NCBI GenBank assembly: GCA_015178975.1
Contig: WHVD01000159.1
Coordinates: 62,001-126,000 of the forward strand
Reading direction: 5' to 3'
Source: Hysterangium stoloniferum
Lineage: Eukaryota > Basidiomycota > Agaricomycetes > Hysterangiales > Hysterangiaceae
DNA length: 64,000 bases
Shown here: one piece after another, positions 24,444 through 59,319 of the stretch
Position numbering within the stretch: position 1 is the first letter of the stretch
How the letters are laid out: each line of letters opens with the position of its first letter
Made by a program: the position numbers and the translations under genes
The notes under the pieces: generated by a model
Told to the model about the DNA's origin: nothing
Seen by the model: the letters and a program-made list of their open reading frames with translations, nothing else
Database searches by the model: none

Positions 24444-25232
24444 GACTCACAGATTGTGTCAATATGCCACCAAGAAGAAAAGCACCTATACAGGAAAACA
24501 TACCTGGACCCTTGACTCTTCATTCCCCACTCACTTTGTACACCAGTCAGACACTCACAAACCAGCTGGACACCATGAATGAATCCCATATTAAAGAACC
24601 CCCAGAAAACCCAGACAATTCCAAGTACAAGGATGAGTCTGTGGCCCCCAACAAGGGCAAAAGTGTCAAAAGTCCCCCATCTAATCAGTGACCACAGTGT
24701 TCAGATCCCACTTCTGAGTTGTTAGCAATCACTTTAGATAAAATGATGGATCACATGCTCAGAGAAAACAAGAAAAAGGATCAGGAACCTCCATAGTCAA
24801 AAGTCAACACTCTGGAACCTCATCAATTTCTGTGATCAATCTACCACATTTTCCACAGACTCCCAAAAAGTCAATTATGCACTCTCATACCTCTTGAGAA
24901 TCCACATTGAAATGGTTTGAACTGGCTTTTAGTGGACTTTCTGAGGAAGAGCTGACCTGGCTTGAAGATTGGAATGCATTTGTTGAAGAGCTAAAGACAA
25001 ACTTTGGCCCGTACGACCTGACTGGAGAAGCCGAGAATAGCCTCACCAATCTTCATATGAAGGACAACCAGTGCATCACAGACTACATTGTCCAATTCAA
25101 CAATCTTCCAGCATGTTGTCAATAGGGTGACCACTCTCTGCCACCAGTTCTATGCCGGTCTGCCATCCTGCCTCAAGGATGAAGTCTCAAAAGGTGAAGA
25201 TGGCAAACCCAAAACATTGTCCCATATGTGCC

Positions 25233-26634
25233 TGTAATGTATTAGACTTATTTTAATATTATTTTCTGGAAAAAGGAGTCCAATGCTCTATCAAAGTGTG
25301 CAAATACTCAATTCACAACAAGGTAAAATAATTTAAGTATTTGATATTAATCAGTGGCAGTCTAAATGGACTTAGAACCCCTGAAGTCAAGAGTTTACTT
25401 GAATATATGCACCCTACTTCGCAAAGAAGGTTTTTGAGAGCTGCTTATGTAAGCTTGTTCTTTTTCTGTGAAAACAACCACTAAAATATGAATAACAATT
25501 TACTGATTCCAAAACTAGATTCAACTTCGATTCTAGCTAGTTTATATATATTTTATACTATTTATCAAACAGTAAAAATATTAATAAACAGGTCAAAAGA
25601 TCAACTATAGAATAAAACAATATTTGGCAATATATGCTTTATTTAAATTAATATACTGGATCTACTGTGATACTAACTTATCAGGATCTTAATGTAGTCT
25701 GTATGATTCTGCAAGAATATTCTCAGTATTTAATTATAAGCCAAACCAGGAGAAATTAGAATTATATTCTAATTTCAAACAATAAAACAAACAATTTATT
25801 TATTACTTGGTTGATAGCCAACAACTCTAACCGAGGTGGCAACGATTCCAACAACTTAAATAGAAGTTAGAAAAAGTAATAAAGCCAGCTACTCAATTAA
25901 GAGGTGGCAAGGGGGAACAAATAAGTCAACAACTCAGATTGAGGTGACAAGGTGAACTACTTGGGCCAACAACTCTAACCGAGGTGGCAAAGGTTTCCAA
26001 CAACTCAAATAGAGGTGGAATTAAAAGTCCAACAGCCCTGATAGGGGTGGAATAGCCTGCTTGCTGCAGTAACACACAGATGTGGGTGGATAAAAAGTTA
26101 TATTTTCACGGCTGGAGCAGAGCTCCTTATATACAATAAAATGTGAGACATTTTTGAGACATATTACATCATTACTATCCTAATTTAGCTATTCCTGGGG
26201 AAGCTTCTGGAATGCTCCAGGAATTTCCGGTTTTTTCTACAGTAGCATACGTGATGATGTAATCTATTCCCGCGCCTTTCGTGTATGTCATCCGTGCGCC
26301 TTTGTAATCATCGCGTCGTGTGACTGTCACATTATGTGACCGTCGCGCCTTGTGACCGTCGCGCCTTTTTGTGACGACTGTCACATGATTTTCTCGCGCG
26401 TTGTGTAATTAGCGCCTGGTGGCCGGTTTGATAGTATTTAGTTAAAAAAGAATAAATTCATAACTTCTTCAATATTTAAGATAAAAATGTAAAATAAATT
26501 GTAGAAATTCAACGAAATTTAAAAGATATTTATACAAATTTTATCATCGCAATATAAGTACATTTCACAAGCCATTTTGGCTATTTCGGCTTTTGGGGGA
26601 CTTAAAAGGTAGAAAACTAATAAAATACATAACA
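25233..26634 (-). mobile_element. Solo LTR, 1.4-kb family, nested in gag of copy A
   Basis: The element runs TGTAATGTATTAG...AAAATACATAACA (TG...CA) and is flanked by a perfect 5-bp duplication GTGCC (25228-25232 and 26635-26639). Removing it restores a continuous copy-A gag reading across the junction, so it is a clean insertion. It is the reverse complement of the element at 46038-47533 and differs mainly by fewer 16-bp minisatellite units (about two here). It codes for nothing recognisable. The 1.4-kb length is large for an LTR, and no partner LTR or internal region is present. Confidence 0.85.
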
Positions 26635-28931
26635 GTGCCTCAAGGCTCAAAATGCAGATGCACACTATTGGGATTGTCGAGAAGAATTTGCCTGTGAGAC
26701 CTCCATGGAAAAGACCAACAAGTCCATGGTGAACAAACCCAACAACAATACCCCATCTCCCAGCAATGAAAACTCCATGTAATCTGATTGGAAGAATGAC
26801 AAGAAGTCTTCCAACAACAACAACAACAGCAAAGGTCAGCAATCCAGTAAACAAAATGGAAAAACTGACCTCACAGGCAAGCTCAGGCCTGATGGCAAAC
26901 TTACCCCAGAAGAAAGGCAGTGTTGTATAGATAACAACCTTTGTCTCTTGTGCAGAAAACCTGGTCATTGAGTTCTGGAATGTCCATTGGTGAAAGCAAA
27001 CTCTGCAAAAGGTTGTGTGACCAAGACTCCCTGCATGGAATCTTTGTCAAAGGACAAACTGGCTTCCAATCCAAAAAAAGAGTAAGCAACCCCACAGACT
27101 CCACATGGGTTGGGGGTTGCATTACCTCTCCATGCATTCATGAGTTTACTTGTCTTAACACATCCACTCTTTTGAACTCTGACTTGTTTTTTATTAAACT
27201 GGTGTCTAATATGATTCCAAAATTCATTTTCGCAGCACTCATAGATTCCAGCTCAGCTCATTGTTTTTGAGACACAAAATTCATATAAAAAATCTGTTGT
27301 CAACTTATCTGATAAATCCAGTTGGACTCCAACTTTTTGATGGCACAAGCAATTCAGTTATCACCCAAGCTTGTGACTTATTATGTTCTCAGGACATTTC
27401 AGGCTCAACAAGACTCTATCATTGATAAGAAGAGAATATACTTGGCCCAGACTCCAAGATTTCATTAAGCACTATTGTAAATCTTGCATCACTTGTCTAC
27501 ACTCCAAATCACAATGTCACAAGCCATATGGCCTTTTAAAACAACTCCCAGTACTGGAACACCTGTGGAATTCCATCTCTATGGATTTCATTGAACACCT
27601 ACCGGACTCTGAAGGTTTTTCCACCATTCTAGTCATTGTTGACAGATTCTCAAAACAAGCCATTTTCATCCCCACACATGACACCATCACATCCATGCAG
27701 TTAATGGAACTTTTTATTATCAATGTATTTTCCAAGCATGGAGTCCCATCCCACAAAACATCCGATTGAGGATCAGAGTTTGTATCTCACTTCTTTAGAT
27801 CCCTCAGGAAATCCTTGGACATCAAGTTACACTTCATGTCTGGACACCACCTGGAAGGTGATGGACAAACCAAGCATCTCAATCAGACATTGGAACAATA
27901 TCTCCATGTATATTGCAACTACCAACAGGACAATTGGAAATCCTGTTACCACTTGCAGAATTTGCTTACAACAATGCACCCTCGGCCACTACTGGCATTT
28001 CCCCATTCTTTGCAAATAAAGGGTACAATCCAAATATTATGGTACACCCAGAATGGAACCTTGCCTCAGCCCATGCTCAAGAATTTGTCACAGACCTCCA
28101 CAAACTCCATGAAGAACTCCAAACCATGATAAAATCTGCCCAAGAACAATATCAGCATTCAGTGGACAAAAACCAGGTTCCACCACCCAACTTCAAAATT
28201 GGTGACTGTGTTTTTGTCAAAGCTCAATTCTTCCGGACTACCTGTCCATCAAAGAAACTCACTGAAAAATATTTAGGTCCATTTGAGTTAATAGCACAAG
28301 TTGGTTCAGTTTCATGGACCCTGTGGCTTTGTGAGGACCAGAAAACCTGCCGGGCTCTGGACCCCATCCTATATGCACCTGACTCTCTATACCAGGTCAC
28401 AGTTACCTGGAAAACCCACCAGGCTCCGGATACCACCTTATACATAGGTACCTGACTTCTGTCTCATGCATCAGTCATCAGACAACCTGCTGGGCCCCAC
28501 ACTTGTCAAACCAACCTATGCCCGACTCTGCTGGGACCTGTACACTTCAAACCTGTCTACAGTATGTCCAACTCCATTTTCATGCACCAGTCACTGGACT
28601 CCACCCGGACAACCTGTCAGCTCTCTAACTGAGCTCTGCTCCTATTATGGTCAAATGACCTGTCATGTTTCAGACTCCACCCCCATTCCGTTCCATCCCT
28701 AACACCTAGTTTGGTGTTTATTCATCCCAATTTATGTTTACTTGTTTAGTCTTTCATTATTACCAGATTTAGTATTGCATACATTTCACAGTCTATATAA
28801 TCTAGCTGATGTTTGTACATACAATCTGGTCAGAAAATTGACTAAGTTTTTCCCAGTAACTCTAGCACCTACGTATGAATAGATTCTAACACATATTGAT
28901 ATATTAGGAAGAATAGATGGGAAATTTATAT

Positions 28932-35608: not shown

Positions 35609-36238
35609 AAATGTATCAATAATGTGTGAGGTTTATGTACCTGCATGGTGTATATCATCAACCTTCTGATCCAATTTGGAATCTTTGGTGCCAAAGTGGT
35701 GTAGGATGACAGCTTCTTGAATATATGAGAACTCATTTGTGACAACTCTTAACCATGCACATCTGTGTACCCATATTGTATGCATTGAGAGTGTAAAGAA
35801 GGCAGAAACATCATACTATGTAACATTCTGGGGATTTTAACTAGCAGATCTTCTGAGAAGTTACAATAATAATGATTCAGAGTTTCTAGCATGAGAGCAG
35901 TTGTCACAACAGCCAGAAGCAAAAGAACCATGAGATGGGCCATCTGAGAAGCCCACAACAGTTCATCAGAAAACAGCAAGTAACCACTCATAAGAGATAT
36001 CCAATATCCCCATGGTTAAAATCGAGTCCTAGAAGCTTCAGAAATAGCAAGGAAGGCACCAGACGGGGGGGATGTGTCAGTCAGGTAAGACCGGTATATA
36101 TGCCGATATGCAAATGTATACACCAATACCTGAAAGATTTTCTTAAAAGCCACATGAACACATCTATTGGAGCTGATAGAACATATTTGTGACCTGAACC
36201 ATGTTTGCTAGCTTGGTTGTTGACTTCCACCTGGTATC

Positions 36239-36492
36239 TGTTAGATTTGGAAATACAATATCTATTAGAATGTTCAAGCTGTTATAAGTCCCAAGTAGGC
36301 ATCAGTCCAGATGTGACTGTATGAGTCCCAGTGTTGCATCAGAAGGACCTTATAGAATATGTATATATAATCCATTATATTACACTAGACCAATAGGTCC
36401 AGTAGCTCAGTGGTTAAGAGCACTGCTTATATAAAGCCAGAGGTCCTTGGTTCAATCCCAGGCTAGGTCAATTCTTTTCTATACCTTTAACA
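36239..36492 (+). repeat. Small TG...CA element (solo LTR/TRIM type) carrying a tRNA-like gene, copy 1
   Basis: The 254-bp element TGTTAGATTTGGAAATAC...CTATACCTTTAACA has a perfect 5-bp duplication GTATC (36234-36238 and 36493-36497). A second copy at 58899-59113 has its own duplication GATAC. Both carry the same tRNA-like segment near the right end. The size, TG...CA ends and 5-bp duplications point to a miniature LTR family rather than a SINE. Confidence 0.8.
36396..36469 (+). tRNA. tRNA-like sequence inside a miniature LTR
   Basis: The segment has a pol III A box (TAGCTCAGTGG), a B box (GGTTCAATCCC), a clean T arm and D arm, and an acceptor stem that mostly pairs. The anticodon arm folds imperfectly around TATATA, so an isoacceptor cannot be assigned with trust. 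It is more likely a tRNA-derived promoter of the element than a working tRNA gene. Confidence 0.55.
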
Positions 36493-36623
36493 GTATCAAC
36501 TTCTCAAGCCCACTGACACTGTGTAAGGATTTGAACACCACTGGATGACTCTCCATAGAGCTAAAACTCTAAGTTCCTAATTCAAACTGACAGCTGTGAC
36601 AGGTGACAGGGTTTAGAACTTGC

Positions 36624-37983: not shown

Positions 37984-39573
37984 TCAGAGAGAAGATAGTG
38001 GTCCAGGTTTGAGTGGATAAGCTGTATGAAAGTCAGTAACGATTTCTGTGGTATTACCAAGTTCTGCGGCCAAAATCCATGAGGTTTCTTCATCGGTGCC
38101 CTTGTAACCCACCCACTTGACCAAGTAAAGCAGTTTACAAGTGCATTGACACTTGTCAATTTTCAAATCTAAAATTTGTGAGATTTCAAACTCGGGTTCT
38201 CTGTCAATAATGACCGGAGGGGGTGGAGATTGCACGTGATCCGGAATAGTGTTAGCAGTACAAGGTTCTAACATAGAAACATGAAATACTGGGTGTACCA
38301 CATGCATGCTATCTGGAAGCCATAGGGTCCAAGAGACTGAACCTACTTGTGCAATAATTTCAAACAGACCTAAATATTTTTCAGCAAGCTTTTTTGATGG
38401 ACGGGTAGTCCAGAAGAATTGAGCTTTGACAAAAACATGGTGGCCAATCTTGAAGTTGGGTGGCAGAATCCAGTGTTTGTCTGCTGAATGTTGATATTGC
38501 TCTTGGGCGGACTTTATTGCAGTCCAGAGTTCCTCATGGAGCTTGTGGAGGTCCCCGGTGAACTCTTGAGTGCAAGCAGAGGTGAGATTTCGTTCTGGAT
38601 GTACTGTAATATTTGGATTATATCCTTTATTTGCAAAGAATGGGGAAACACCAGTAGTGGCCAAGGGTGCATTGTTGTAAGCAAATTCTGCAAGTGGTAA
38701 CAAGGATTTCCAATTGTCCTGTTGATAATTGCAATATACACGGAGATATTGTTCCAATGCCTGATTGACGCATTCGATTTGTCTGTCACCTTCTGGGTGA
38801 TGTCCGGACGTGAAATGTAGTTTCATGTCCAAGGATTTCCTGAGGGATCTAAAGAAGTGAGATACGAACTCTGATCCTGAATTGGAAGTTATGTGGGACG
38901 GAACTCTGTGCTTGGAAAATACATGGATAATAAAAAGTTCCACTAACTGCACAGACGTAATTGTATCATAAGTAGGGATAAATATACCTTGTTTTGAGAA
39001 TCTGTCAACAATGACTAGAATGGCGGAAAAGCCTTCGGAATCTGGTAGGTGTTCGATGAAATCCATAGAGATGGAATTCCACGGGTGTTCTAGTACTGGG
39101 AGTTGTTTCAAAAGGCTGTATGGCTTGTGTTGCTGAGATTTAGAGTGTGGACAAGTAGTGCAAGATTTACAATAGTGCTTAATGAATCCACAGAGTCCGG
39201 GCCAAGTGTATTCTCTTCTTATTAATGATAGAGTTTTGTTGTACCTGAAATGTCCAGAGAATGGATGATCATGTTTGTACTGAAGGATCCTGAGGTGGAG
39301 GCCATTGGAGTCCGGTACATAGATCCAATCGCCAAGTCTAACAAAACCATGCTGATCAAGAGACCACTGGGGTTGATCGGGGTCCACAGGATTGTCAAGG
39401 TGAGCTTTAGTTATTGGGTCTAGCAGAATTGCCGATAGAATATCTTGATATAACTTCTCAATATCCATAATGATAATTCCATGGACAATGAGATTGATGA
39501 GGAAAGTTGCGTGGACTGATGCGGTAAGTTGTTGATTCGTGAAAATAGGTTTCAGGTTGTGTGGGTTTACCAT
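37984..39573 (-). pseudogene. Integrase and chromodomain region of copy B
   Basis: One open segment of 529 residues. It contains the H2C2 zinc-binding region (HPFSGHFRYNKTLSLIRREY through CKSCTTCPHSK), the rve core (ISMDFIEHLPDSEGFSAILV; ECVNQALEQYLR), the GPY/F-like module near 38400, and a C-terminal chromodomain (LLYLVKWVGYKGTDEETSWI) that marks the chromovirus lineage. It is part of a broken element. Confidence 0.88.
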
Positions 39574-43915: not shown

Positions 43916-44556
43916 TGTGAGAGGTATGGCGAAATACACTCAGGAAATATATGTAGTCTGGATGAGCTCATGCTATATTTCCTTTATTATTTCTACTCTC
44001 TCTATTTTATTATACACTTATAATTAGTTCGATGACCTATGTATGCAGTACATCGACTCTTGTGGGCACATACACGCCAGACTCATGTATTCTAGTGCCT
44101 GTAGTTAAAACTCAGACACTTTTTTACCTCACAACCACAACTTACCCAGACACACATTTAGTGTCCTGTAAGTCATGATTGAGGTATCGTCTCGACCGTC
44201 ACAGATGGGCTTCAACTATCCATGCAATCATAGTTTCAAACTGTGCCAGTCGAAACTCCACTTATATCTCCATCCGCGTGGACAACATCCACACTACTCT
44301 ATCATTTGACTCTCATTACTCTTTTTCTACACTTGAGCAGTCACTCAGAATCGCACCTAACAGTCGATTCCCTTTATTCGTTTTAGCTATCTACTCTACC
44401 TTAGATAGTTACTTCACTCAGACATATTGAACTAAATAGTCAATACTTGTTCAGCTGTATTGAACTTAGACAGTCAATACCACTATGTGTTGTACCTAAA
44501 CGGTTGATATTCTTTGTATATACATAGAACGGTTAGAACTTCCACCACTCTTCACA
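43916..44556. repeat. 641-bp solo LTR nested in gag of copy B
   Basis: TGTGAGAGGTATGGCG...CACTCTTCACA is flanked by a perfect 5-bp duplication GGGGG (43911-43915 and 44557-44561). It separates the acidic-repeat part of gag from the capsid part. It matches no other repeat in the window, so it belongs to a separate family. It contains no ORF with a domain. Confidence 0.75.
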
Positions 44557-44566
44557 GGGGGCCACA

Positions 44567-45300
44567 GATTCATCCTCATGCTCAGATTCGTCCTGGTGCT
44601 CGGATTCGTCCTTGTGCTCGGATTCGTCCTTGTGCTCGGATTCGTCCTTGTGCTCAGATTCGTCCTTGTGCTCGGATTCATCCTTGTGCTCGGATTCGTC
44701 CTTGTGCTAGGATTCGTCCTTGTGCTCGGATTCGTCCTTGTGCTCAGATTCGTCCTCATTCTCGGATTCGTCCTTGTGCTCAGATTCGTCCTCATTCTCG
44801 GATTCGTCCTCATTCTCGGATTCGTCCTCATTCTCGGATTCGTCCTCATTCTCGGATTCGTCCTCATTCTCGGATTCATCCTCATTCTCGGATTCGTCCT
44901 CATTCTTGGATTCGTCCTCATTCTTGGATTTGTCCTCATTCTCGGATTTGTCCTCATTCTCAGATTCTCAGATTCGTCCTCGTTCTCGGATTCATCCTCG
45001 TTCTCGGATTCCTCCTCGTTCTTGGATTCATCCTCGTTCTCAGATTCATCCTCGTTCTCGGATTCCTCCTCGTTCTCGGATTCATCCTCGTTCTCGGATT
45101 CTTCCTCGTTCTCAGATTGGTCCTCATTCTCAGATTTGTCCTCATTCTCGGATTCATCCTCGTTCTTGGATTCATCCTCATTCTCGGATTCCTCCTCGTT
45201 CTCAGATTCATCCTCGTTCTCGGATTTGTCCTCATTCTCAGATTTGTCCTCATTCTCAGATTTGTCCTCATTCTTGGATTCGTCCTGGTTTTCCAGGACT
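44567..45300 (-). repeat. 18-bp minisatellite in gag of copy B, about 40 units
   Basis: Units of the form GATTCGTCCTCATTCTCG (plus strand) repeat with no spacers for about 730 bp. On the coding strand they specify an acidic Asp/Glu/Ser/Asn/Lys hexapeptide array near the gag N-terminus. Copy A has only a short non-repeated equivalent. Long ORFs on the opposite strand are by-products of the 18-bp period. Confidence 0.9.
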
Positions 45301-45457
45301 TCTTCGATATGGGGTTCTTCCATGGTTTCCGACCAGTTTGCAAGTGTCTGGCTGGTATACAAAGTTAATGGGGAATGAAGAGTCGACGGTCCAGGTAATG
45401 ATGCCTGTGCATGTGCTTTTCTTCTTGGTGGCATATTGAAAACAATCTGTGAGTCTT

Positions 45458-45468: not shown

Positions 45469-46037
45469 ACTGTTAGGGTACGTACATGATGGGTTTCCAG
45501 AGAAACCCGCAGAATATCTGGTAGGACTTGGCTTCAGCTTATTGGCTGCACCCTCGTGAGATTGTGTTGTCCAATTTCAGACAGGCGGACAGGAATCCCA
45601 GGGAGTCTGGGCAGGGTTCATAGGTTGAGGGGTTGTAGGTCAGAGGTCGTGGGTCAAGAGGTCGTGGGTCAAGAGGTCGTGGGTCAAGAGGTCGTGAGTT
45701 GAGATAGATAAGAGAGATAGATGCGCTGGAGCATGTGGGCTCCAACTAGCATGAGCGGTGTGATTCAAGTAGGAGTTTAGAGCAGAAAATGTATTAGATT
45801 ACTGGGGGGAATCTAAGCCAATTTTCTGACTGGATTGTATGTACAACATCTGCCAGACTAAATAGACGGTGGAATGAATGACATACCAAATCCAGTAATA
45901 ATGAAACAAAACTAGCAAAATATAAAATGAGAATAGTAAACACCAAATTTGGTGTTAGGAATGGGACGGAATGGAGCAGAGTCCAAATCATGACAAATCA
46001 TAAACCATAATGGGAAACGGAGCAGGAGCGGAGTCTG

Positions 46038-47533
46038 TGTTATGTATTTTATTAGTTTTCTACCTTTTAAGTCCCCCAAAAGCCGAAATAGCCAAAATGG
46101 CTTGTGAAATGTACTTATATTGCGATGATAAAATTTGTATAAATATCTTTTAAATTTCGTTGAATTTCTACAATTTATTTTACATTTTTATCTTATATAT
46201 TGAAGAAGTTATGAATTTATTCTTTTTTAACTAAATACTATCAAACCGGCCACCAGGCGCTAATTACACAACGCGCGAGAAAATCATGTGACAGTCGTCA
46301 CAAAAAGGCGCGACGGTCACAAGGCGCGACGGTCACAAAGCGCGACGGTCACAAGGCGCGACGGTCACAAAGCGCGACAGTCACAAGGCGCGACGGTCAC
46401 AAGGCGCGACGGTCACAAAGCGCGACGGTTACATAGTGTGACAGTCACACGGCGCGATGATCACAAAGGCGCGCGGATGACATACACGAAAGGCGCGGGA
46501 ATAGATTACATCATCATGTATGCTATTGTAGAAAAACCCGGAAATTCCTGGAGCATTCCAGAAGCTTCCCCAGGAATAGCTAAATTAGGATAGTAATGAT
46601 GTAATATGTCTCAAAAATGTCTCACATTTTATTGTATATAAGGAGCTCTGCTCCAGCCGTGAAAATATAACTTTTTATCCACCCACATCTGTGTGTTACT
46701 GCAGCAAGCAGGCTATTCCACCCCTATCAGGGCTGTTGGACTTTTAATTCCACCTCTATTTGAGTTGTTGGAAACCTTTGCCACCTCGGTTAGAGTTGTT
46801 GGCCCAAGTAGTTCACCTTGTCACCTCAATCTGAGTTGTTGACTATTGTTCCCCCTTGCCACCTCTTAATTGAGTAGCTGGCTTTATTACTTTTTCTAAC
46901 TTCTATTTAAGTTGTTGGAATCGTTGCCACCTCGGTTAGAGTTGTTGGCTATCAACCAAGTAATAAATAAATTGTTTGTTTTATTGTTTGAAATTAGAAT
47001 ATAATTCTAATTTCTCCTGGTTTGGCTTATAATTAAATACTGAGAATATTCTTGCAGAATCATACAGACTACATTAAGATCCTGATAAGTTAGTATCACA
47101 GTAGATCCAGTAGATTAATTTAAATAAAGCATATATTGCCAAATATTGTTTTATTCTATAGTTGATCTTTTGACCTGTTTATTAATATTTTTACTGTTTG
47201 ATAAATAGTATAAAATATATATAAACTAGCTAGAATCGAAGTTGAATCTAGTTTTGGAATCAGTAAATTGTTATTCATATTTTAGTGGTTGTTTTCACAG
47301 AAAAAGAACAAGCTTACATAAGCAGCTCTCAAAAACCTTCTTTGCGAAGTAGGGTGCATATATTCAAGTAAACTCTTGACTTCAGGGGTTCTAAGTCTAT
47401 TAAGGCTGCCACTGATTAATATCAAATACTTAAATTATTTTACCTTGTTGTGAATTGAGTATTTGCACACTTTGATAGAGCATTGGACTCCTTTTTCCAG
47501 AAAATAGTATTAAAATAAGTCTAATACATTACA
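46038..47533 (+). mobile_element. Solo LTR, 1.4-1.5 kb family, nested in the 5' LTR of copy B
   Basis: TGTTATGTATTTTATTAG...CTAATACATTACA has a perfect 5-bp duplication GTCTG (46033-46037 and 47534-47538). It is 1,496 bp, against 1,402 bp in the inverted copy at 25233-26634; the difference is accounted for by extra 16-bp units. A TATATAAGG box lies at 46635-46643. Downstream is a set of degenerate CCACCTC...GTTGTTGG repeats (46717-46950). Near identity of the two copies suggests recent activity of the family. Confidence 0.85.
46300..46450 (+). repeat. 16-bp GC-rich minisatellite inside the large LTR
   Basis: About eight units close to CACAAGGCGCGACGGT, some with AAAGCGCG in place of AAGGCGCG. 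The copy at 26281-26395 has about two units. The repeat lies upstream of the TATA box, so in U3. Confidence 0.88.
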
Positions 47534-47825
47534 GTCTGAATTGTGACAGGTCATTTGACTAAAACAGGAATGGGGCTCTGTTAGAGGGATGATGGGTTTT
47601 ACGGGCGGGGTCCGGTGACTGATGCATGGGATGAGGTTGGACATAGACAGGGATGGAGTCTGGTGGGTATTCCTGTGACTGATACACAACGTAATGAAGT
47701 CAAACATAGACAAGTCTGACGTACGGAGTCCAGCGGGAATTCCGGTAAACTGACAATGGGTGTGTATAGGGTGCGGGTGTGTATAAGTTAGTACCTGGAG
47801 TCCGGTGGGAATTCCGGTTGTAACA

Positions 47826-56027: not shown

Positions 56028-56727
56028 ATGGGTCCCAAACACAAAGCTGCCAAAGGACCATCCCAACTTCAATCCCCATTGCAACTTTATACCACTCAAC
56101 CCGAAATCCCAGTTCAGCCCACAACGTCAGCTTTCATCAAAGAAGTCATTGAGGTAGCAAAAGATCCTGATGCTCCTGAAGTTTCCAACAACAATGATGA
56201 AAAAGAACAGCCAGATAAACTGAAAAAGAAATCTTCCAATGATCCAACTGAAAGGTTGTTCATCAATTCCATTGTAAAATTTGCTGACTATCTGAAATCC
56301 ACTGAGGAAAACAAAGAATCCTCCCATACCAGAGTTAAAGAACCCAAACCATTTACTGGCAAGGATTTGAAAAAATTGAAGAATTTCCTTCTTCAATCCC
56401 ATTTCAACTTCCATGATCAACCCACTGCTTTTAAATCTGACAGTCAAAAAGTCAATTTCACACTCTCATATCTCAAGGATACCACTCAGGATTGGTTTGA
56501 ACCCAGACTTTCCAGAATATCTGATGAGACACCCATATGGCTTGATGACTGGGATGCATTTGTTGAAGAACTGGAAACTAACTTCAGACCTTACGATGAA
56601 TCCAGTGAAGCAGAAAATGAACTAATGACACTCAAGATGAAGGACAATCAACAAGTTTCTTATTATCTCATCAAGTTCAATACCCTCATGCACATTGTGG
56701 TTGGGACAATTCCACTCTCAGACACTA
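56028..56727 (+). pseudogene. Gag N-terminus and capsid of copy C
   Basis: The segment starts MGPKHKAAKGPSQLQSPLQL and contains the capsid signatures KPFTGKDLKKLKNFLLQSHF, NFTLSYLKDTTQDWFEP and FVEELETNFRPYDESSEAEN. It stops being gag at the nested LTR that begins at 56728. Confidence 0.8.
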
Positions 56728-58207
56728 TGTTAAGAAGTGCATGTGGAGCTTATTGGAGGGTTCCCAGAGAAACCCATGGGAAAGCTGGTAGGACTTGGCT
56801 TCAGCTTATAGGCTGCACCCTTGTGAGATCATGTCGTCCAATTTCAGATGGGCAGACAGGAATCCCAGGAGTGGTTGGCAGGTTGAGAGGTTGGAGGGTC
56901 AACTGTGGGAATCCTGCAAAGGTTGAGGGGTTGGGTGGTGATGGGTCAGAGTTCTCATGATAGATAGGTCGGAGCCCATGGGCTCCGATGAGGTAAATAG
57001 TGGTGTGTTTCAAAGAGGAATAGAGTGGGAAATGTACTGAGATTATTGGGGGAAATCTAAGCTGATTTTCTGACTGGATTGTATGTACAACATCTGCCAG
57101 AATATATAGACTGTGGAATGTATATCATACCAAATCCAGTAATAATGAAATCCAAACTAGTAATCATGAAATGAGATAAGGAGGATATCTGAAAACTATT
57201 AAGTATACCAAATTCTAATATACTCTAAAGGTCATTTAAACATCTGGGATGTGATTCAAACATAATTTGGTTTTTAAAAGTTTCAAAAAGTTTTAAACTC
57301 TCTTGTACATTACAAACTAAAGAATCTTTCTGGACAAGAGTAGACAATAAAAAAAATTAGTAGTTTGAAATACTAATACTTTTAAAAAATAGATACTTTT
57401 AGATAGTCCATTCCATGCATATGTATATCATTGGCACCTCTAAATACATATGTATTACTCCGGAATGGATCTGTCAATCTGAACAGATGTCTACTTGATT
57501 CAACATACCCAGAATATATAGGTGATTTCACTTAATAAAGAAGGCCATAGGATGAAAAATTTCAATTATATATCACATATTTACTAGGAAATAACTACAG
57601 TTTAGCTTTTAAAAAACAAATCAACAACAAAAGTATTAGCAAGTATTTACATAACTTGGAAAACCATATACAATAGGTTCTATTAATTGACTCTGAATTG
57701 TTTAAGATGTAATATGGAGAATTATTTCTTATGATTGGTGGTTAACAATATAATAGTCTCAGAGGATATATCACTATTTAAAGATGGAGTTTTGTAGAAA
57801 TATAAATTTTACCAGTAAACATCTGATATTATGTATAATGATTATGGACAACCTCCTAAGTAAACACCAAATTTGGTGTTAGGAATGGAACAGAGTGGAG
57901 TGAAGTCTGAAATGTGACAGGTCATTTGACCATAATGGGAACAGGGCTCAGTTAGAGAGCTGATGGGTTTTCTGAGCAGAGTCCAGTGACTGATGTGTGG
58001 GACAGGGTCAGGGATAGACAGGGATGATGTGTGTGGGGTCTGGGTGGGTATTCCGGTGACTGGTACATGAGATAATGAAGATCAGGCAAGGATAGGTCTG
58101 ATGTCCAGGTTCCAGCAGGTATTCCAGTAAACTGATAACTGGTGCATGTAGGGTGTGGGTGCATATAGGGTAGTGCCCAGAGTCTGGCAGGTTTTCTGGT
58201 CATAACA
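56728..58207 (-). repeat. Solo LTR of the A/B family in gag of copy C, itself interrupted
   Basis: TGTTAAGAAGTGCATGTG...TTTCTGGTCATAACA has flanks CACTA and CACCA that match at four of five bases. The LTR proper is about 800 bp; a 677-bp DNA element (57180-57856) sits within it. Confidence 0.82.
57180..57856. mobile_element. MITE, possibly PIF/Harbinger type
   Basis: The short terminal inverted repeats are GGAGGATATC and GGAGGTTGTC (right end read on the minus strand). A TAA duplication flanks them (57177-57179 and 57857-57859). The interrupted LTR reads ATAAGTAAACACC at this point in its uninterrupted relative near 59790, which fixes the borders. The element is AT-rich and has no transposase ORF. 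A TWA-type 3-bp duplication is typical of PIF/Harbinger elements. Confidence 0.65.
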
Positions 58208-58898
58208 CACCATTTCTATATGGGTCATCCATCACACCTAAAAGATGACATCTGCAAAAAAGAAAAGCTGAAAACTCTCCAACTCATGCAGATGAAAGTT
58301 CAGACATCTGATACCCATTATTGGGAATGAAGAGCAGAATGTTCTCAAAGCAATAAGGCATCATCTAGTAAGTCTTCTGGCAACAACTCTGGTAATAACA
58401 CTGGTAACTCAGGCAATAATACCAGCAAATCAAATTCCAATCAGAAGAAAGACAAGATATCCAATAAGGAAAAACAGTCAACTTCCGATAAACCTGACAT
58501 TTTTCATTTGTTGGGTTCTGATGGTAAACTCACTCCAAAGGAGAAACAACAATGCATGGATAACAACCTCTGTCTTTTCTGCAGAAAAGGTGGACACAAG
58601 GTTTCCAACTATACTGTTAAGTCAAACTCTTCCAAGGCTCACATGACAACTTCCACTACAACTTCAACATCCAAGGAAAAACCTGCCACAGTGTCATAAA
58701 AAAGAGTAAGTAGCCCTCGGAATCTGCACAGACAGAGGGTTGCATTGACTCTCCCCATGTTTCTGAGATTGTCCATCTCAATGCATCTGCTCTTTCTAAC
58801 CCTGACTCATTATTTGTAAAACTCATTTCTGACCTTCTTGGAAATTTAGTGTTCTGAGCTCTGATAGATTCCAGCTCCATGCATTGTTTTGTAGATAC

Positions 58899-59113
58899 TG
58901 TTAGAATTGGAAATACAATATCTACATCAGTCACTTGTTACTGTTATAAGTCCCAGTGTTGCATCAGGAGAGGGATAGATATGTATATATAATCCATTAT
59001 ATCACACTAGACTAATAGGTCCATAGCTCAGTGGTTGAGAGCACTGCTTATATAAAGCTAGAGGTCCTTGGTTCAATCCCAGGCTGGGTCAATTCTTTTC
59101 TATACCTTTAACA
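58899..59113 (+). repeat. Miniature LTR element with tRNA-like gene, copy 2
   Basis: The 215-bp element TGTTAGAATTGGAAATAC...CTATACCTTTAACA has a perfect 5-bp duplication GATAC (58894-58898 and 59114-59118). It sits in the protease region of copy C. It lacks about 40 bp near the middle that copy 1 (36239-36492) has. Confidence 0.82.
59018..59090 (+). tRNA. tRNA-like sequence inside miniature LTR copy 2
   Basis: It has the A box (TAGCTCAGTGG) and B box (GGTTCAATCCC), a T arm and a D arm, as in the copy at 36396. The anticodon arm again folds imperfectly, so it is best read as a tRNA-derived pol III promoter. Confidence 0.55.
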
Positions 59114-59319
59114 GATACCACCTTTGCCACAAAACATAATCTGAAACTCCATTCTGTTCCCACAATCTCTTTGTGTCTGTTTGATGGCACTAGCAACATG
59201 GCAATTACTCATGCCTGTGACATGTCTATCTGGTTCCCATGTGGAACATCCCAGATGGTTACATTTTTCATAACACAGTTGGACTCTAGCTGTTTGGTTG
59301 TTCTTGGATACAACTGGCT

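Follow-up and report, generated by a model that had tools for sequence, protein, structure and literature searches.

The window, by which we mean the whole 64-kb stretch of DNA analysed here, contains two copies, A and B, of a short LTR-like sequence. The copies have the ends TGTTAG...TTTAACA in common and can be aligned over their whole length, apart from a large gap on the left and several small ones. A preliminary description of this DNA had claimed TG...CA ends, different perfect 5-bp duplications (GTATC, GATAC) and a tRNA-like segment with intact A and B boxes for both copies, and all of these are present, the A box and the B box being identical between the two. The Rfam gathering score for tRNA is 29 bits, which copy A exceeds and copy B just fails to reach; the segment of copy A is also detected by ARAGORN, with no amino acid assigned. 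A blastn search (E up to 10) returned no third copy in the 64-kb window, only short chance matches. The features are listed below, with the basis of each in brackets.

36234..36238, no strand: left 5-bp target-site duplication GTATC of copy A (sequence)
36239..36492, plus strand: solo LTR copy A, 254 bp (sequence, alignment)
36362..36370, plus strand: TATATATAA in copy A, a candidate TATA element for pol III or pol II, 26-34 bases upstream of the tRNA-like segment (sequence)
36396..36470, plus strand: tRNA-like segment of copy A, 41.1 bits to RF00005 (Rfam, ARAGORN)
36403..36413, plus strand: A box TAGCTCAGTGG of copy A (sequence)
36449..36458, plus strand: B box GGTTCAATCC of copy A (sequence)
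36475..36478, plus strand: TTTT right after the tRNA-like segment of copy A, a possible pol III terminator (sequence)
36493..36497, no strand: right 5-bp target-site duplication GTATC of copy A (sequence)
58894..58898, no strand: left 5-bp target-site duplication GATAC of copy B (sequence)
58899..59113, plus strand: solo LTR copy B, 215 bp, with a deletion in its left part (sequence, alignment)
58984..58992, plus strand: TATATATAA in copy B (sequence)
59018..59091, plus strand: tRNA-like segment of copy B, 28.2 bits to RF00005, slightly below the gathering score (Rfam)
59024..59034, plus strand: A box TAGCTCAGTGG of copy B (sequence)
59070..59079, plus strand: B box GGTTCAATCC of copy B (sequence)
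59096..59099, plus strand: TTTT in copy B, a possible pol III terminator (sequence)
59114..59118, no strand: right 5-bp target-site duplication GATAC of copy B (sequence)

Copies A and B are solo LTRs of a TRIM. The host is a fungus, perhaps a basidiomycete; a piece of its RPB2 has its best scores with polymerase II of S. pombe and budding yeasts. In the 111-Mb assembly that we searched (554 contigs), the same LTR occurs in pairs around a short interior. The element L009 measures 255+66+255 bp (576 bp in total) with identical LTRs and the outer duplication CATGT, and L010 measures 254+66+254 bp (574 bp) with two differences between its LTRs and the outer duplication CAACA; in L011 the right LTR is truncated. 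The interior starts with GGTTATGGGCCCCG, which over 14 nt is perfectly complementary to the host initiator tRNA in its anticodon arm (a pattern search found the gene of this tRNA at three genomic places), and ends before the 3' LTR in the purine tract CAGGGGAAG. Priming of the element by its own tRNA-like part is not supported, as the primer site matches the initiator tRNA over 14 nt. The earlier claim that the copies moved like LTRs is supported by L009 and L010, with their paired LTRs, short interior, primer site and purine tract. The preliminary description had also named missing pairs, missing duplications and varying, SINE-like ends as signs against such movement; we find consistent 5-bp duplications and constant ends.

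The family is numerous. A 26-base segment spanning the B box has 312 genomic matches (144+168, at most 3 mismatches), its backward-read control none, and junctions between the interior and the 3' LTR, in which the purine tract is joined to TGTTAGA, number 82, 78 of them without mismatch (control 0). Among the 100 listed of the 157 matches to the pattern joining LTR and primer site, 69 belong to this family and 31 to a second one, and 59 of these 69 listed junctions are paired with an interior-LTR junction 61-62 bases on. Given 312 B-box copies against 82 interior-LTR junctions and 69 listed LTR-primer-site junctions, many copies must be solo LTRs or fragments. We fetched 39 places (L009-L047) and left out two without full-length alignment; the remaining 37, which are the best-scoring places and not a random draw, gave 39 full-length LTR alignments. 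A perfect 5-bp duplication flanks 29 of the 39, matching outer flanks occur in four further rows (two paired elements), and, with the outer flanks of paired elements counted, the duplication is present at 31 of the 37 places. The other six consist of two mosaics, one truncated element and three places without duplication. L014 and L015 have common flanks and may represent one insertion. Eleven LTRs at ten of the fetched places are identical over 255 bp, indicating recent movement.

The combination of an LTR with a tRNA-like gene, called unusual in the preliminary description, has in fact been described: TRIMs with tRNA-like LTRs were named Helenus by Kojima 2024 (PMC10886601). By its anatomy the present family is best placed in this already described kind, every anatomical feature tested being present. 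Like Helenus, with its published length range of 311-1263 bp, it is a short non-coding two-LTR element (L009 576 bp, L010 574 bp, interior 66 bp). It carries an A/B-box tRNA-derived sequence in the LTR (copy A, L009 and L109 above the cut-off, copy B just under), a primer site adjoining the 5' LTR and directed to the anticodon loop of the initiator tRNA (here the 14-nt perfect complement) and a polypurine tract before the 3' LTR (82 junctions, control 0), and several families per genome and many solo LTRs are found in both cases. Fungal Helenus elements, reported from rust fungi and a few Agaricomycetes, duplicate 5 bp of their target, are primed in most cases by the anticodon loop of the initiator tRNA and have a link to Copia (PMC10886601); here the 5-bp duplication is found at 31 of 37 places outside the window and at both window copies. 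Tandem arrays, which we also find, are stated there for a zebrafish family. A mosaic of TRIM and Copia at the primer site, in contrast, occurs here and is not mentioned in the accessible parts of that paper, which call the pol III promoter function of Helenus unproven. The parallel with Cassandra drawn in the preliminary description is apt, as both are TRIMs whose LTR contains a pol III gene and both form tandem arrays (PMC7215508); Cassandra, however, is a plant element with 5S rRNA, whereas in this fungus Rfam reports tRNA only, which rules out a Cassandra-type 5S element. Ajax likewise is a TRIM with a small-RNA-derived promoter, yet it is 5S-derived and known from two nemertean worms (PMC10886601), in contrast to the tRNA that alone is reported by Rfam here. 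In the openly accessible literature since 2024, Helenus retrotransposons came up in Kojima 2024 and in a meeting report, and a search for TRIMp3 returned no other relevant title.

L116 (C16:165700-166700), in which three 128-bp LTRs alternate in tandem with two 155-bp interiors and the outer duplication is TCGTG, represents a second Helenus family of the same genome. The first 14 bases of its interior are the same as in family 1, and its tRNA-like part, which scores 46.8 bits and has one non-standard pair, is read as tRNA-Ile(TAT). Only 34 bp of the LTR precede this part, and the first TTTT is absent in two of the three LTRs. The B-box segment of this second family has 450 genomic matches (243+207, control 0).

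The partner of the TRIM is likely a Copia-type element, judging from what follows its primer site elsewhere in the genome. The junction of AACA with GGTTATGGGCCC has 1174 genomic matches (579+595, at most one mismatch; control 0), so that junctions of LTR and primer site far outnumber the 82 TRIM interior-LTR junctions. A 358-residue Copia-type piece contains a Pol_BBD domain followed by a weak rve (integrase) match below the curated cut-off; gag followed by integrase is the Copia order. A genome search with this piece gave at least 163 matched stretches (114 of 665 candidates scored), several of them within open frames of 1284 or 1416 codons. Among the eleven gag N-terminal matches listed for contigs C1-C46, seven have an exact primer-site junction 593-598 nt ahead of the Copia-type gag start; the other four have no primer site upstream among the sites listed, a listing that leaves one-mismatch sites outside. 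A Copia-type copy on contig C1 has LTRs identical over a 306-base match, which includes the base preceding the LTR, AAACG can be read on both its outer sides, and directly after its LTR stands the same 14-nt primer site as in the TRIM. The last part of a Copia-type frame on C1, which may be RNase H, gave no PDB match. Beyond LTR ends and primer site we saw no likeness between the TRIM and Copia-type interiors. Mobilisation of the TRIM by Copia is supported by these sequences, not proven.

The two kinds of element also occur fused. In a mosaic on C113 (L002/L108) a Copia-type LTR end is followed by a TRIM interior and a TRIM LTR, and these by a Copia-type leader and gag. The TRIM unit lies precisely at the primer site, with a Copia-type LTR on one side and a Copia-type interior on the other; the Copia-type leader and gag begin at a primer site again. 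The TRIM interior is 88% identical to that of L009, with the primer site altered, and compared with the C1 copy the Copia-type parts have 87% (LTR end) and 75% (leader) identity; the frame on the gag side contains Pol_BBD and then a weak rve match below the curated cut-off. A second mosaic, L070/L017 on C543, is arranged in the same way between parts of another element, X; no gag match was found within the 1.5 kb examined. A Copia-type coding region is demonstrated in one of the two mosaics read. Two more candidates come from junction positions alone (C259 near 33.3-33.6 kb, C35 near 1081.4-1081.7 kb). In the simplest account of the mosaics, the RNAs of the TRIM and its partner would have been copied in one particle. 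Our search of the openly accessible literature for chimeric LTR elements at primer sites returned no title on TRIMs.

Tandem arrays form a second kind of compound structure. L109 on C4 consists of four LTRs and three interiors of subfamily s2 within one outer duplication, CAACC, and tandem (interior-LTR)n arrays are bounded by an intact outermost 5-bp duplication. Six arrays emerge from the spacing of the 69 junctions among the matches listed; the largest, on C534, has six junctions at a spacing that alternates between 318 and 356 bases. In the matches listed, a few contigs (C35:906-1086 kb, C534, C543, C182, C514, C109, C137) hold dense groups of TRIM copies and tandem arrays, in a manner resembling retroelement-rich blocks. 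For Cassandra arrays, template switching during reverse transcription is one proposed cause (PMC7215508). We tentatively suggest, at somewhat less than an even chance, that one mechanism yields both arrays and mosaics: Helenus RNA would be packaged together with Copia RNA, and a minus strand that has reached the primer site would anneal to the primer site of the second RNA and enter a further lap. Linking such template-switching laps to mosaics with the partner is the part that goes beyond the Cassandra proposal.

Taken together, we consider it probable that the family is a non-coding Helenus-group TRIM of about 575 bp, transcribed by pol III from a tRNA-derived promoter in its LTR and moved by Copia, and that the window holds its solo LTRs. 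In such a cycle pol III would start near LTR position 150, aided by the A and B boxes and by the upstream TATA, would read through the 5' LTR, its TTTT included, and the 66-bp interior, and would stop in the 3' LTR. The RNA would then enter Copia particles, where the initiator tRNA would prime through its anticodon arm. Copia reverse transcriptase would copy the TRIM RNA in trans and Copia integrase insert the product with a 5-bp duplication, and recombination between LTRs would leave solo LTRs such as copies A and B.

That pol III transcribes the TRIM we infer; the conservation of its tRNA-like part bears on this view. Between the LTR subfamilies s1 (L009) and s2 (L109), the 158 bases before the tRNA-like part have 104 identical positions and 57 changed or gapped ones (65% identity), as against 70 identical and 6 changed or gapped within it (92% identity); in the tail 21 are identical and one is changed or gapped. 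The contrast is significant (Fisher p = 1e-7), and two comparisons with copy B give values below 1e-6. All four aligned LTRs agree in the A box, the B box, the TATA block TATATATAA and TTTT. Within the tRNA-like part the s1-s2 changes fall on the anticodon side, and copies A and B differ also at an acceptor or D-loop base. This conservation contrast fits selection on a promoter. Losses in single copies do occur: the last two bases of the A box are changed in one LTR of L010, and TTTT is broken in L011.

How a full-length RNA would arise is the chief problem for transcription by pol III. TTTT begins 5 nt past the tRNA-like segment, inside the LTR. In 33 distinct 3' flanks of host tRNA-like genes, which come mostly from one tRNA-Lys family and are not a random sample, the first T run has a length of at least 5 in 28 cases and is TTTT in 4, with none in the remaining one; the terminator run of the host initiator-tRNA gene is TTTT only. 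TTTT is thus a plausible terminator, and pol III RNA may end short of the primer site, in which case a full-length RNA needs read-through in the 5' LTR. Multi-element transcripts have been reported for Cassandra, presumed to arise by read-through of intervening LTRs (PMC7215508).

These features give rise to the strongest alternative, which we regard as unlikely though worth serious weight: the TRIM would still be moved by Copia, but its genomic RNA would be made by pol II from the LTR TATA, the tRNA-like part yielding a short separate pol III RNA or acting as an insulator, enhancer or targeting element. The TATATATAA block, unchanged across the four aligned LTRs, could serve pol II just as well, and with TTTT after the tRNA-like part in all four, a pol III transcript would terminate some 14 nt short of the primer site. 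However, a TATA-like motif also lies 18-32 bases upstream of 19 of the 33 distinct host tRNA-like genes (mostly tRNA-Lys; no background control), so that a TATA fits pol III too, and TTTT stands at the short end of the host T runs. Moreover, the second family has only 34 bp before its tRNA-like part, yet 450 B-box copies.

Since the cloverleaf of L109 is largely kept, selection on structure is possible as well. The tRNA-like part would then be retained for its RNA fold, which might serve packaging, reverse transcription or nuclear handling, and promoter function would be at most an additional reason. To this reading we assign a small probability, clearly below that of transcription by pol II. 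The Rfam tRNA scores of 45.4 bits for L009 and 48.6 bits for L109 agree with it, as do the absence of any non-standard pair in L109, where one extra base in the anticodon stem is the only departure, and the tRNA-Ile(TAT) of the second family with its one non-standard pair. On the other hand, the s1-s2 differences are confined to the anticodon side and leave the A and B boxes untouched, ARAGORN gives no amino acid for copy A, and the primer site matches the initiator tRNA and not the element's own tRNA-like part. The extra anticodon-stem base of L109 and the missing amino acid of copy A may likewise tell against a reading of family 1 as functional tRNA.

Short non-coding elements with a tRNA-derived internal promoter include the tRNA-derived SINEs, which have no LTRs, no primer site and no fixed 5-bp duplication. 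That our copies are such a SINE or a dispersed tRNA pseudogene with chance LTR-like ends, as the tRNA-like part and the short length might suggest, is next to impossible, being refuted by the paired elements with their primer site and purine tract, the fixed TG...CA ends without a 3' tail and the 5-bp duplications.

To the known kind of element, transcribed as we think by pol III and moved by Copia, the present data add a mosaic of TRIM and Copia, the contrast in conservation along the LTR and the question of how full-length RNA is made when a TTTT, a possible terminator, lies between promoter and primer site. The autonomous mover of such TRIMs has so far been inferred mainly from primer sites in common and from likeness of the interiors; identical recent TRIM copies, Copia-type copies with long frames and a recombinant, all in one genome, make the question of the mover directly testable. 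For genome annotation, the 762 tRNA-like B-box segments of the two families (312 + 450) may inflate tRNA counts.

Some further observations concern the surroundings. LTR positions 18-35 (L009 634-651) are identical over 18 bases to L087 1467-1484 (= L084 220-237) and to L094 1467-1484. In each of the two places the match (E 0.002) precedes a tRNA-Lys-like gene by 17-34 bases, and near matches are present at further such genes; either chance or a common upstream element for pol III may account for it. Clusters of tRNA-Lys(CTT)-like genes that contain introns and have conserved flanks lie on C112 (about 0.91-1.22 Mb, both strands) and C68 (about 0.74-0.85 Mb), as seen among L084-L107. Within the window, open frames at 37984-39573 and 56028-56960 encode Tf2-like integrase/SH3 (weak chromodomain) and retrotransposon gag domains, by which they are classed as Ty3/gypsy-type remnants near the two LTRs. 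The segments 25218-26641 and 46031-47548 are inverted copies of about 1.4-1.5 kb, 96-98% alike in three pieces. An open frame at 2452-2988 runs across a repeat with many glycine and cysteine codons; at 44455-45400, long open frames contain a tandem repeat with a unit of 18 bases.
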